From Oscillospiraceae bacterium (GTDB lineage: Bacteria; Bacillota; Clostridia; Oscillospirales; Oscillospiraceae): 41,124 nucleotides of DNA. The translations under genes and the position numbers were made by a program. Of the stretch, positions 38,667 to 41,041 are shown one piece after another. Position 1 is the first letter of the stretch. Each line of letters opens with the position of its first letter. The DNA lies in assembly GCA_017432615.1 (NCBI GenBank), contig JAFRIV010000016.1:1-41124 (forward strand). The letters are read 5' to 3'. The notes beneath the pieces were generated by a model, which worked only from the letters and a program-made list of their open reading frames with translations, did no database searches and had not been told where the DNA came from.

Positions 38667-39137
38667 TTACCGAACATAGCTTTGATCCTTGCTCCCGTCC
38701 ACCGCTTTGCGGAGCTGCCAGCGCCCGGTACTCCGATCCTGCGCGATCCGGGCGTAATGGCCGGTCACGAGGCAGTCAAAGCCTTTTTCCAGAGCCAGCG
38801 AAAGCAGCAGATCGAATTTCAGGCAGCGATTGCAGACGATGCAGGGATTTGGCGTCCGTCCGGTTTCATACTCCCGGATAAAGTTTTGAATGACTGTTTT
38901 TTCAAACTCTTTGGTACAGCAGAGAGGCTCAAACGGGATGCCCAGCTGCCAGCATACATAAGCGGCATCATCCTCATCCGCGTCGCTGCAGCAGCTTTTC
39001 TGTGACGCACGCTCCATTCCCGGCGCTCGGAACAGCCGCATGGTGACGCCTGTGCAGTCATAGCCCGCCTGCTTCATCAGAAGCGCGGCGACCGAACTGT
39101 CCACCCCGCCGCTCATAGCGATCAAGGCTCGCTTCAC
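38667..39137 (-). pseudogene. mnmA: tRNA-specific 2-thiouridylase MnmA, 3'-truncated
   Basis: 156 residues of a normally ~360-residue protein. Present: MSGGVDSSVAALLMKQAGYD (PP-loop), GVTMRLF, PNPCIVCNRCLKFDLL with the first catalytic-type cysteine, VTGHYARI and KDQSYV. Normal MnmA continues from this point (DQSYVLY...) into the region with the second catalytic cysteine and two C-terminal domains; here SYV is followed by Arg and TAA. The enzyme, which thiolates U34 of Glu/Gln/Lys tRNAs, cannot be active. Its start overlaps the AGCS stop by 4 bases (ATGA-type), so it is co-translated with the transporter. Confidence 0.82.
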
Positions 39138-40525
39138 GTCTCTTCGATCCGTGCCTTGTCATAGGCGGCAAAGAAATCCTTTGTGTCTTTCACGACCACG
39201 CTGCCGAACAGGATCAGTGAGAAGAGGTTCGGGATCGCCATGAGGCCGTTGCACACATCTGCCGCGTCCCACAGCAGCTGCACGCTGATTAGGGCACCGA
39301 GAGCGCAAATCACCATGTGCAGCACGCGATAGATCTTCACCTTGTGTACGCCGAACAGGAAGGCGAAGGCAGACTCGCCGTAGGTATACCAGCCCAGCAC
39401 CGTGGACAGGCAGAACAGGATCAGCGACACGACGAGGACGATCTGCCCCAGCCCGCCCAGATTTTGCTGGAAAGCTGTGGAGGCCAGCACCGTGCCGTCC
39501 GTGACGCCGCTGTTCCACACGCCGCTGACCATGATGATAAGAGCGGTAAAGGTGCAGATCACAAAGGTGTCAAAAAAGACCTCAATAATGCCGTAGAGTG
39601 CCTGCTTGACCGGCACATCCACCTTGGCGGTCGCATGCACCATGGCCGAGGAGCCTGTGCCCGCTTCGTTGGAAAAGACGCCGCGCTGGACGCCGCGACG
39701 GATCGCGACACCCATGGTCGCACCGGCCACGCCGCCGATCACCGCGTCGCCGGTGAAAGCGGACTTGACGATGAACCACAGCGCCTGCGGAATGAGCGCG
39801 ATGTTCATGATGAGGATCACAAGTCCGAAGCCCAGATAAATGATCGCCATGATGGGCGTGAGATAGGTGGTCACGTCAGAAATCTTTTTTACGCCGCCGA
39901 AGATGACCAGCCCGTCAATGCCCAGGATTAGGACCGCAATGACCCAGGGGATCGCGGTGCCGCCGCCTGCGAGGCCGCTGACCGCGCTGCCGATCGTATT
40001 GACCTGCAGCGCACCGCAGGAGATGAAGGAGACAAAGACCGTGAAGACCGCGAAGGCGCCACCCAGGATCCTGGCGATTGTCTTCTGCTTCATGCCCTGT
40101 GTCAGGATGTACATGACGCCGCCGCGGAAGTTGCCCTCCTCGTCCTGTACACGATAATGCATGGCCAGGGCGATCTCCGCAAATTTAGTGGCCATACCGC
40201 CCAGCGCGGCGATCCACATCCAGAAGATCGCGCCGGGTCCGCCTACGGCGATCGCATAGGCCACACCGACGATGTTGCCGTTTCCCACACAGGAGGACAG
40301 GGCTGTAGCGAGCGCTTTGTAGGAGCGGATCTGCCCGATACCATCGTCGGACTTCTTCTCCACGTTCCATACGACTTCCCGGAATGCGGTTCCGAAGCGG
40401 GTAAACTGAATTCCGCGGAGGCGGATGGTAAAGTAGAGCCCAACGCCGAAAAAGACGACCAGCATAATGGGACCGAACAGAAATGTACCCAATTCTCCGA
40501 GGATTTTTCCAATGACAGCTTCCAT
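39134..40525 (-). CDS. AGCS-family amino acid:cation symporter (alanine/glycine type)
   Basis: 463 residues, ten to eleven membrane helices. Family motifs: FGPIMLVVFFGVGLYFTIRL, LATALSSCVGNGNIVGVAYA, GPGAIFWMWIAALGGMATKF, and GVQRGVFSNEAGTGSSAMVH. Normally imports alanine or glycine with Na+ or H+; related small amino acids are possible. AAAGGAG precedes ATG 40525. It is preceded by a terminator hairpin and a cysteine-rich leader ORF, which points to attenuation control, and is followed by overlapping mnmA'. Confidence 0.92.
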   Translation of the reverse strand: MEAVIGKILGELGTFLFGPIMLVVFFGVGLYFTIRLRGIQFTRFGTAFREVVWNVEKKSDDGIGQIRSYKALATALSSCVGNGNIVGVAYAIAVGGPGAIFWMWIAALGGMATKFAEIALAMHYRVQDEEGNFRGGVMYILTQGMKQKTIARILGGAFAVFTVFVSFISCGALQVNTIGSAVSGLAGGGTAIPWVIAVLILGIDGLVIFGGVKKISDVTTYLTPIMAIIYLGFGLVILIMNIALIPQALWFIVKSAFTGDAVIGGVAGATMGVAIRRGVQRGVFSNEAGTGSSAMVHATAKVDVPVKQALYGIIEVFFDTFVICTFTALIIMVSGVWNSGVTDGTVLASTAFQQNLGGLGQIVLVVSLILFCLSTVLGWYTYGESAFAFLFGVHKVKIYRVLHMVICALGALISVQLLWDAADVCNGLMAIPNLFSLILFGSVVVKDTKDFFAAYDKARIEET

Positions 40526-40542
40526 TTTCTTTTCTCCTTTGC

Positions 40543-40582
40543 AAAAAAAGTACCGGGGAACTCATATCGCGAGTTCCCCGGT
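40543..40582 (-). terminator. Terminator/attenuator hairpin upstream of the AGCS gene
   Basis: Arms 40552-40563 (ACCGGGGAACTC) and 40571-40582 (GAGTTCCCCGGT) pair perfectly, loop 7. On the - strand it is followed by ACTTTTTTTGC. It lies between the leader ORF and the AGCS ribosome binding site. A TTTT on the other side makes it potentially bidirectional. Confidence 0.85.
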
Positions 40583-40611
40583 TTTTGCGTCTCTGCCCAT
40601 AAAGGCACGGC

Positions 40612-40725
40612 TCAGACATCGACGCAGGAAAGCGTGAACTCGAGAAAATGGGCGCAGTTACACATACACATGTCTGCAGACATGCGCAGCACAGAAGCGA
40701 AGTATTTCTCGAATACAGCTTTCAT
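40612..40725 (-). CDS. Cysteine-rich 37-residue leader ORF
   Basis: AAGGAGGA is 4-5 bases before ATG 40725, one of the strongest ribosome binding sites in the window. The product begins MKAVFEKYFASVLRMSADMC and contains Cys at 20, 22, 24 and 34 (codons TGT-ATG-TGT-AAC-TGC, later TGC), ending TLSCVDV. No signal peptide or known domain. It sits between a TTGACA/TATAAA promoter and a terminator that precedes the AGCS gene, the layout of an attenuation leader peptide; cysteine-codon stalling is the natural guess. It could alternatively be an independent small protein. Confidence 0.6.
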   Translation of the reverse strand: MKAVFEKYFASVLRMSADMCMCNCAHFLEFTLSCVDV

Positions 40726-40737
40726 GGCTCCTCCTTT

Positions 40738-40762
40738 TTAACCTATTGACTTAATAGGTTAA
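40738..40762. promoter_or_regulatory. Perfect palindromic operator (10-5-10)
   Basis: TTAACCTATT (40738-40747), GACTT, AATAGGTTAA (40753-40762). It covers the -35 of the rightward promoter and the start region of the leftward one, so one bound dimer could control both. The size and AT-rich character fit an Rrf2/CymR- or LysR-type site; the regulator is not in the window. Confidence 0.65.
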
Positions 40763-40774
40763 TTTGTTTATACT
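40746..40774 (+). promoter_or_regulatory. Promoter of the thiS-like gene
   Basis: TTGACT (40746-40751), 17 bp, TATACT (40769-40774). The -35 lies in the palindrome. Confidence 0.7.
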
Positions 40775-40795
40775 GCATTTGTTCTCCTTTGTCAA
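40767..40795 (-). promoter_or_regulatory. Promoter of the leader ORF/AGCS/mnmA' transcript
   Basis: - strand TTGACA (40790-40795), 17 bp, TATAAA (40767-40772). Its -10 coincides with the -10 of the opposing promoter, so the two should be mutually exclusive. Confidence 0.72.
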
Positions 40796-40819
40796 GAGGG
40801 AAAGAGAGGATTTGAGACT

Positions 40820-41041
40820 ATGATGATTCAAGTTTCCGGAAAGAAAACAGAAGTTGAAAACGGAATAACCGTCATGCAGTTGATGGAACAGCAGAAGATG
40901 GAGACGTCCCAATATGTGACCGTTGCGGTCAACAACGCATTCCTTCCGATGGATTGCTACGAGTGCTTTTCTCTGAAGGAAGGCGACGCGGTAGAGTTTT
41001 TGTACTTTATGGGAGGCGGTTGCGATGGCGCTGAGCAGTGA
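40820..41041 (+). CDS. ThiS/MoaD-like sulfur-carrier protein
   Basis: 73 residues (or 72 from the second ATG at 40823), a small beta-grasp protein: IQVSGKKTEVENGITVMQLM, VTVAVNNAFLPMD and LKEGDAVEFLYFMGGG. Sulfur carriers are adenylated and thiocarboxylated on a terminal Gly-Gly and donate sulfur in thiazole, molybdopterin or cysteine biosynthesis. Here six residues (CDGAEQ) follow the glycines, so processing would be needed, or the tail is a consequence of the overlap with the next gene. GAGAGGA upstream. The next gene, an E1-like enzyme, starts 17 bases before this stop. Confidence 0.82.
   Translation: MMIQVSGKKTEVENGITVMQLMEQQKMETSQYVTVAVNNAFLPMDCYECFSLKEGDAVEFLYFMGGGCDGAEQ

Follow-up and report, generated by a model that had tools for sequence, protein, structure and literature searches.

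The window, by which we mean the whole stretch of DNA analysed, covers positions 1 to 41,124 of contig JAFRIV010000016.1 (41,124 nucleotides; GenBank assembly GCA_017432615.1, Oscillospiraceae bacterium). Close to its end, a leader region with promoter, palindrome, ribosome binding site, short ORF and terminator (40543-40795, minus strand) lies upstream of a gene for a carrier of the AGCS family, with 6cse as a relative (Table 1). The carrier gene starts 17 bases after the T7 tract of the leader terminator and is followed by a truncated mnmA gene, described earlier as a tRNA thiolase remnant. The gene is indeed truncated in the window, but at the loci considered (L027, L031, L115 and L108) ORFs of 359-363 aa follow AGCS in three relatives, the L031 copy with all three Pfam MnmA domains. 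Another MnmA-like start is present in the window genome (L108). In the opposite direction runs a thiS-like sulfur carrier gene, whose product ends in GGGCDGAEQ and would therefore need trimming to obtain a Gly-Gly end; the next ORF, cut by the window end, is presumably thiF-like.

The neighbours of the AGCS leader differ among relatives. The divergent thiS-like operon also encodes a JAB-domain protein in L113 (15909-17378) and, by eye, in L028; we take such a ThiS/ThiF/JAB operon to resemble those for sulfur-carrier-dependent synthesis of cysteine or homocysteine. In L116 (4984-5832; by eye also in L027, L114 and L115) a divergent CN-hydrolase (nitrilase-like) gene replaces thiS, while the intergenic region and the leader are similar. 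The CN-hydrolase gene is accompanied by a PLP enzyme of cysteine/methionine metabolism in L116 and, by eye, L027, and CysK is the neighbour in L114. The sulfur theme proposed in the preliminary description is supported, with ThiS, cysK and met genes as neighbours or as targets of the wider leaders discussed below.

Table 1. Features of the leader locus in the window, and genes found after the wider Met/Cys leaders.
Feature	Position or locus	Strand	Basis
Leader promoter, -35 hexamer TTGACA	40790-40795	-	read from sequence
Leader promoter, -10 hexamer TATAAA, 17-nt spacer to the -35	40767-40772	-	read from sequence
Palindrome TTAACCTATT-GACTT-AATAGGTTAA, perfect 10-bp arms	40738-40762	.	read from sequence
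Ribosome binding site (AGGAGG), 4 nt before the leader ATG	40730-40735	-	read from sequence
Leader ORF, 37 codons, MKAVFEKYFASVLRMSADMCMCNCAHFLEFTLSCVDV	40612-40725	-	ORF list; homologues in relatives
Region 1 (protector), 5' strand of the predicted long leader hairpin	40705-40723	-	folding
Apical hairpin CATGTCTGCAGACATG, immediately upstream of the Cys codons	40669-40684	-	alignment and folding
Codons Cys20, Cys22 and Cys24, proposed control codons together with Met19 and Met21	40654-40668	-	alignment
Region 2, 3' strand of the predicted long hairpin, with antiterminator arm CGAGTTC inside (40636-40642)	40628-40647	-	folding
Intrinsic terminator stem-loop (regions 3 and 4), GC-rich	40552-40582	-	sequence and terminator scan
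T7 tract of the terminator	40543-40549	-	sequence and terminator scan
AGCS (sodium:amino acid symporter) family carrier, the gene proposed to be regulated	39134-40525	-	TIGR00835 / PF01235 above cut-off
Truncated mnmA, 156 aa, probably co-transcribed with AGCS	38667-39137	-	ORF list and domain search
Divergent thiS-like sulfur carrier gene	40820-41041	+	ORF list and domain search
Divergent promoter TTGACT-17-TATACT of the thiS-like gene (position of -10 TATACT)	40769-40774	+	promoter scan
MetQ/NlpA lipoprotein after leader	L118, L132, L133, L195, L196, L201, L204		Pfam NlpA above cut-off; MetQ label is the best NCBIfam hit, below cut-off
MetN-like ATPase after leader	L122-L125, L128, L203		best NCBIfam hit, below cut-off; L123 and L125 by eye
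O-acetylhomoserine sulfhydrylase (metY-like) after leader	L129, L139, L140, L146		NCBIfam OAH-sulfhydrylase above cut-off; L140 by eye
Homoserine O-succinyltransferase (metA-like) after leader	L198, L199, L207		Pfam succinyltransferase above cut-off
CysK after leader	L121		NCBIfam above cut-off
ABC permease after leader	L205		no terminator found by script

The anatomy of the leader agrees with what had been described before, from the promoter and the ribosome binding site to the T7 terminator, including the coordinates and the positions of the cysteine codons (20, 22, 24 and 34). The TATAAA promoter is absent from the promoter scan because the scanner demands T as the last base of the second hexamer. 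Four cysteines in the 36 residues after the start have a probability of about 0.002 at an assumed cysteine frequency of 1.5%, and methionine is equally frequent, with four residues. No Pfam or NCBIfam match was obtained for the ORF. Both rows of the terminator scan represent one hairpin seen on the two strands (shuffles mean 0.6), its stem counting 12 pairs by reading and in the plus-strand row and 13 in the minus-strand row. The 241-nt region 40530-40770, palindrome and terminator included, has a folding z-score of -6.35, and 0 of 200 shuffles were as stable. The layout of an attenuator that had been proposed is found here: close to the transcript start a short ORF preceded by a ribosome binding site, an intrinsic terminator before the gene, with hairpins in the orthologues too, and alternative pairings between them.

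Five AGCS orthologues from relatives (G002, G020, G031, L027 and L028) are 88-93% identical to that of the window. Counting the window, all six close orthologues with upstream sequence are preceded by a homologous leader; L031 and L024/L029 (apparently one contig present twice) begin inside the AGCS gene and were left out of this count. The six leaders are 47-73% identical overall and share the invariant core M-x3-M-C-M-C. Numbered from the ATG of the core, the invariant residues are Met at -12, 0 and +6, Cys at +3 and +9, Ala at +18 and Phe at +24. The codons of the two core cysteines (Cys20 and Cys22) vary between TGT and TGC, and those of the alanine and the phenylalanine differ in the third base only. 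The expected conservation of the cysteine codons is thus confirmed for Cys20 and Cys22 in all six leaders, but not for Cys24 (+15), which is Arg in two of the six (G031 and L028) and Cys in the other four, nor for Cys34, which is not conserved. As putative control codons, Cys20 and Cys22 are invariant with synonymous changes in 6/6 leaders. Conservation of the peptide is poor beyond the core, lengths and C-termini differ, and L027 and G031 have Ser in place of Phe30, in agreement with their terminator arms. Judging from the alignment, this is the pattern to be expected if selection acts on the translated core through its sulfur residues, and on the remainder mainly as RNA.

A seventh leader (G015; L004 / L114) precedes what is, by eye, a mere C-terminal remnant of AGCS; it has ACG at the position of the start codon and retains the MCMC core. 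Near it, a small ORF runs into an apparent C-terminal remnant of MetY (by eye). Searching the relatives with the leader peptide returned matches in 16 of 99 genomes at E<=1, four of which are true leaders by eye (the window's own, G031, G002 and G015), the other matches being apparent coding or chance frames. The G020 leader was missed by this search and found by inspecting the sequence upstream of the G020 AGCS gene. In a scan for leaders before distant AGCS genes, covering 78 loci (L027-L106 except L029 and L031) and ATG-initiated ORFs no further than 600 nt away with three or more Cys, an MCMC leader occurs in L027 and L028 only.

For six of the seven leaders the predicted structure is a single long hairpin that spans roughly codons 3 to 33 and bears at its tip a small hairpin followed by the Cys codons; G002 has a related fold, not the common long hairpin. 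Folding z-scores range from -4.9 to -0.7, those of G020 (-0.68) and G002 (-1.37) not being distinctive, and an ungapped RNAalifold of the leaders recovered the long hairpin in part only. The alternative pairing that the preliminary description proposed to look for over 40583-40640 exists: in the window, CGAGTTC in region 2 can pair with GAACTCG in the 5' arm of the terminator. In L027 and G031 the partners are CGAGTCC and GGACTCG, in L028 and G002 GAGTTC is kept and pairs with GGACTC through one G-U, and in G020 and G015 there is a different, bulged pair at the same place, with a changed terminator arm.

To mimic a ribosome in the simulation, all sequence as far as 13 bases beyond the first base of the A-site codon was deleted, and folding was carried to the end of the 14-nt terminator arm, leaving out the terminator 3' arm. 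When the ribosome was stalled at Cys22, region 2 paired with 8.3-10.8 of these 14 nucleotides in all seven leaders; with a stall at Cys20, this falls to 3.7 nt in G031 and 5.8 nt in G020. Unstalled, 0.0-1.6 arm nucleotides paired with region 2 in 6/7 leaders, the exception being G002, whose antiterminator does not depend on a stall (6.6 nt); the unstalled arm of L027 is engaged with other parts of the leader, by 6.1 nt in total. When the ribosome was placed at the stop codon, the arm paired with the remaining spacer over 5.6 nt (window leader), 5.8 nt (L027), 3.5 nt (G015) and 3.3 nt (L028), and over less than 1 nt in G031, G002 and G020. According to the model, such pairing elsewhere would compete with the terminator. 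The stalled value was reached in 0.3-14% of shuffles (300 per leader, segment downstream of the stall), and the low unstalled value in 1-23% of shuffles of region 1; G031 (14%) and L027 (9%) are the weakest single leaders, and the seven tests are not independent because the leaders are related. A test of duplex energy between leader and terminator arm, which was not significant against shuffled leaders in any of the seven (7.9-95%), was superseded by this ensemble pairing test. Computationally, the antiterminator excludes both terminator and protector, with a weak protector in G002 and not every leader significant singly. The antiterminator duplexes (-9.1 to -15.2 kcal/mol) are weaker than the terminators (-17.7 to -30.5 kcal/mol), so that the order of folding must decide. 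A ribosome stalled at codons 20-24, if taken to reach 13 nt from the A-site codon, ends just short of the arm at 40636-40642; one at Cys34 would, in the same model, cover the arm.

The ORF, its codons, the terminator, their conservation and the alternative pairings are features of the DNA as it stands. Given this anatomy, conservation and predicted switching, the element is most likely a ribosome-mediated attenuator that belongs to a wider set of Met/Cys leaders. We consider it likely that it acts on transcription, reads the charging of tRNA-Cys and probably also of tRNA-Met, and controls AGCS. When charged tRNA is plentiful, the ribosome would reach the leader stop codon, region 1 would then pair with region 2, leaving the terminator arm free, and transcription would end before AGCS. 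When charged tRNA is scarce, the ribosome would stall on Met-Cys-Met-Cys-x-Cys at the tip of the hairpin and hold it open, and region 2, ahead of the stalled ribosome, could pair with the 5' arm of the terminator, allowing read-through into AGCS. We infer here the stalling, the termination and the signal (Cys, Met or both), as well as the repressor considered next and the substrate of the carrier.

The palindrome between promoter and ribosome binding site covers both the -35 hexamer of the divergent thiS promoter and the point at which the leader transcript probably starts. It is possibly the operator of an Rrf2 (CymR/IscR-type) repressor. As the -10 box TATACT of the thiS promoter overlaps the leader -10 TATAAA, a repressor sitting on the palindrome could close both promoters; an Rrf2-type protein would then probably set promoter activity in both directions, as a second layer above the attenuator. 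In the window genome, a cysK ORF has a site resembling CCTATT-N5-AATAGG (one mismatch) 18 nt ahead of it, and an iscS-like ORF has another 75 nt ahead; the names iscS and iscU are our own assignments. The count of palindromes with <=1 mismatch in this genome (3 forward and 3 reverse) is no higher than that of the reversed control (6 and 10), and the argument for an operator is therefore one of placement only. In G002 and G020 an Rrf2 gene, which we assume to be CymR/IscR-like, is divergent from cysK; in G020 a CCTAT..ATAGG site lies between the two genes, and the corresponding site of G002 is less regular. In L033 an Rrf2 gene is divergent from a 53%-identical AGCS gene, with CCTATTTACACGATAGG between, and palindromes of Rrf2 type precede the L132 and L139 leaders (by eye). 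The window assembly, which is 87% complete, contains one Rrf2 gene above cut-off (L111), and a CymR-like regulator was not found in it. We take the L111 gene to be YwnA-like, and the ORFs after it to be macro-domain-like and sirtuin-like.

Leaders of this kind are not restricted to AGCS genes. The pattern GGAG-N(4-12)-ATG-N(12-42)-ATGTGYATGTGY, which does not fit the window leader, where the distance from ATG to core is greater, returned 15 rows in 394 genomes of the order, 14 in 391 genomes of the class and 16 in 400 genomes of the family, against 2, 4 and 1 with the reversed pattern; the three samples share some genomes, and L131 is present in all of them. The rows were sorted by eye, not blind to the downstream gene, on the presence of a short ORF with its own ribosome site, then a hairpin with a T-run and then a gene start. 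On these grounds 21 of the 45 rows were judged leaders (8 from the order, 3 from the class, 10 from the family), the control rows totalling seven. A stricter pattern gave five rows in 400 family genomes, including L118 and L121 (L208 is L121 again), and the wider loci number 22 in total. They precede genes for sulfur amino acids or amino-acid transport, the kind of place where the preliminary description proposed to look. Rows judged not to be leaders are L117, L120, L126, L127, L130, L131, L134-L138, L142-L145, L147-L149, L197, L200, L202, L206 and L209. L141 has an ORF MRERSKTMRPYFNTEICCCMCMCESLYSQGQKALGCMASCLAPERD, a terminator-like hairpin, a tRNA-like stretch (by eye) and a metK-like ORF 432 nt downstream.

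Pooling 20 non-redundant leaders (the window and 19 others), Met accounts for 88 of 569 residues (15.5%) and Cys for 35 of 569 (6.2%) outside the start and the MCMC core, both far above the 3% and 1.5% taken as background; 19 of the 21 wider leaders counted have more Met than Cys. Simulation of the antiterminator in 12 of the 22 wider leaders was clear against shuffles in two (L118 and L133), gave 9.5% in L139 and was unremarkable in nine. The leader-plus-terminator layout recurs, and the modelling supports the exact switch only for the AGCS leaders and a few others. Four other leaders had no Pfam match, and a search of 20 leader loci against Rfam gave a single match, to SRP RNA, and none to a cis-regulatory family. 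With neither these four nor the window ORF matching a protein family, and 20 loci without a cis-regulatory match, such leaders are easily missed in annotation.

In a census of cysK, a Cys-rich ORF followed by a strong terminator was present in 2 of the 29 scored loci. L160 and L168 have Cys-rich leaders without MCMC (MNKAIFNCMMCCDMRCGIRVRFALPI and MAQTLCNCMKCCDVRCEMRIRFVVPICVLP) and strong terminators before cysK. Other short ORFs (MSLLRERCCP.., MILLKERCCP.., MILLTGRC) stand just before cysK in L156 and L160 (there as a second ORF), and between Rrf2 and cysK in L185. A second type of small ORF, ending in ..LxRxNFRFGRM(C) or in the variants NWRNGRM, NWRYGRM, NFRNGRM and NFRFGRT, precedes genes that by eye are metY-, metQ- or ABC binding-protein-like (L210-L216 and L218; also L129, L132, L146 and L114:13426-13692). 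A search for this ending returned nine rows in 9 of 137 genomes (control 1), eight of them such ORFs, and the string NFRFGRM was not found in the literature text searched. A role as an arrest peptide or as a translational leader peptide is conceivable for this ORF.

The wider leaders are rich in Met as well as Cys, and the signal is therefore probably the supply of sulfur amino acids rather than of cysteine alone. The cysteine supply proposed at first is consistent with the conserved Cys codons, but Met is invariant in the core and makes up 15.5% of the pooled residues, so that methionine is probably read too. We lean, though only slightly, towards a family of Clostridia leader peptides with an MCMC core that reads tRNA-Met and tRNA-Cys jointly and controls both transport (metQ, metN, AGCS) and synthesis (metA, metY, cysK) by attenuation, in place of SAM riboswitches and cysteine T-boxes and sometimes atop an Rrf2-type operator.

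It might be argued that the leader reads mainly methionine, with the Cys codons riding along and AGCS being a methionine- or SAM-linked gene. The three invariant methionines of the AGCS leaders, the excess of Met over Cys in the pooled and in the individual wider leaders, and the predominance of metQ-, metN-, metA- and metY-like targets all speak for this. Nonetheless, we regard it as unlikely: Cys equals Met in the window leader, a third Cys follows the core in four of the six AGCS leaders, and cysK, ThiS and JAB-domain genes adjoin or have operator-like sites in common. Moreover, conservation of the Met codons may partly reflect the apical hairpin, and is ambiguous because ATG has no synonymous codon. 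Much less probable is that the ORF encodes a functional small Cys-rich protein, binding metals or redox-active, with an ordinary terminator behind it and AGCS under the Rrf2-type operator only. A conserved MCMC core and a palindrome at the promoter would suit such a protein, but its sequence outside the core is poorly conserved, with variable length and C-terminus, the replacement of Phe30 in L027 and G031 tracks the terminator arms, the long hairpin covers the ORF, and no Pfam or NCBIfam family matches it. We find it scarcely credible that the leader is a nascent-chain arrest peptide, sensing a sulfur metabolite in the ribosome tunnel instead of tRNA charging; in the AGCS leaders the short core is strongly conserved and its distance to the pairing region does not vary, but residues around the core vary in the wider leaders while sulfur residues recur. 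Finally, next to no weight can be given to a metabolite riboswitch or T-box overlapping an ORF by chance, since, for all the strong RNA structure, the window has no Rfam match at gathering score, the eight matches below that score in 40400-41000 (E 0.42 or worse) include no T-box or SAM element, and both identities were rejected for want of a T-box or SAM-family match.

If the joint reading of Met and Cys is correct, a recurring leader attenuator adds a ribosome-based layer to regulation in gut and rumen Clostridia. A single peptide would integrate both sulfur amino acids, and the reading of two amino acids by one leader becomes testable. By its sequence the Met/Cys leader would also be a simple marker of genes regulated by sulfur, this AGCS and other uncharacterised carriers among them.

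The usual view is that sensing of sulfur amino acids in Firmicutes relies on T-boxes, SAM riboswitches and CymR (compare PMC2940859), and ribosome-mediated attenuation is known classically from trp and his. A Met/Cys leader family in Clostridia was not among the literature matches listed, from a search outside which subscription papers mostly fell. The cysteine T-box of C. perfringens at cysK, cysP1 and cysP2 (PMC2940859, in the excerpts available) likewise responds to the supply of cysteine and acts through premature termination on amino-acid symporters and cysK, but it binds the tRNA directly and has no ORF, while the window has no Rfam match. In the CymR/Rrf2 regulon of Firmicutes, as partially available in PMC3828012, where CymR is also proposed for C. 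acetobutylicum, sites stand before cysK and cystine transport genes, comparable to the candidate operator-type site before a transport gene and cysK here. Unlike that regulon, the window combines the candidate operator with an attenuator, in an assembly where no CymR-like regulator was found. RNA control of an AGCS-family carrier has a parallel in Streptococcus pyogenes, where, according to the portion of PMC5829553 at hand, a small-molecule riboswitch for glycine, unlike the leader of the window, precedes the gene.

Among cysteine leaders, the uORFC-8-2 motif is a predicted attenuator before cysS in Rhodobacterales (PMC8632094), similar in its Cys codons in the first stem and its terminator; in the available part of that source it has tandem Cys at codons 14-15, is confined to alphaproteobacteria and cysS, and no MCMC core is stated. 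Identity with it is ruled out by the AGCS gene downstream, the Oscillospiraceae kin and Cys at 20/22/24. Mycobacterial cysteine leaders are reportedly the subject of Canestrari 2020 (cited in PMC13236596), and leaderless by its title. The predicted ones before the mycobacterial cys operons (PMC1262725, as excerpted) are Cys-rich like ours, but their Cys runs lie near the stop and no conserved terminator hairpin was found there. The Shine-Dalgarno site and the terminator of the window rule out a mycobacterial polycysteine leader.

Predicted attenuators closer to the classical type include the His leaders of bacilli (PMC2965389) and the methionine leader MetL before metBA in Campylobacter jejuni (PMC3847290), both as given in the passages available. 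With these and the classical attenuators, the window leader shares a short ORF with control codons and the mutual exclusion of antiterminator and terminator. It differs from them in its mixed Met-Cys codons, in a stall site at the hairpin tip between regions 1 and 2, and in its Clostridia host and sulfur genes. By analogy, the window leader most likely acts in the manner of the trp attenuator, its control codons being those for sulfur amino acids.
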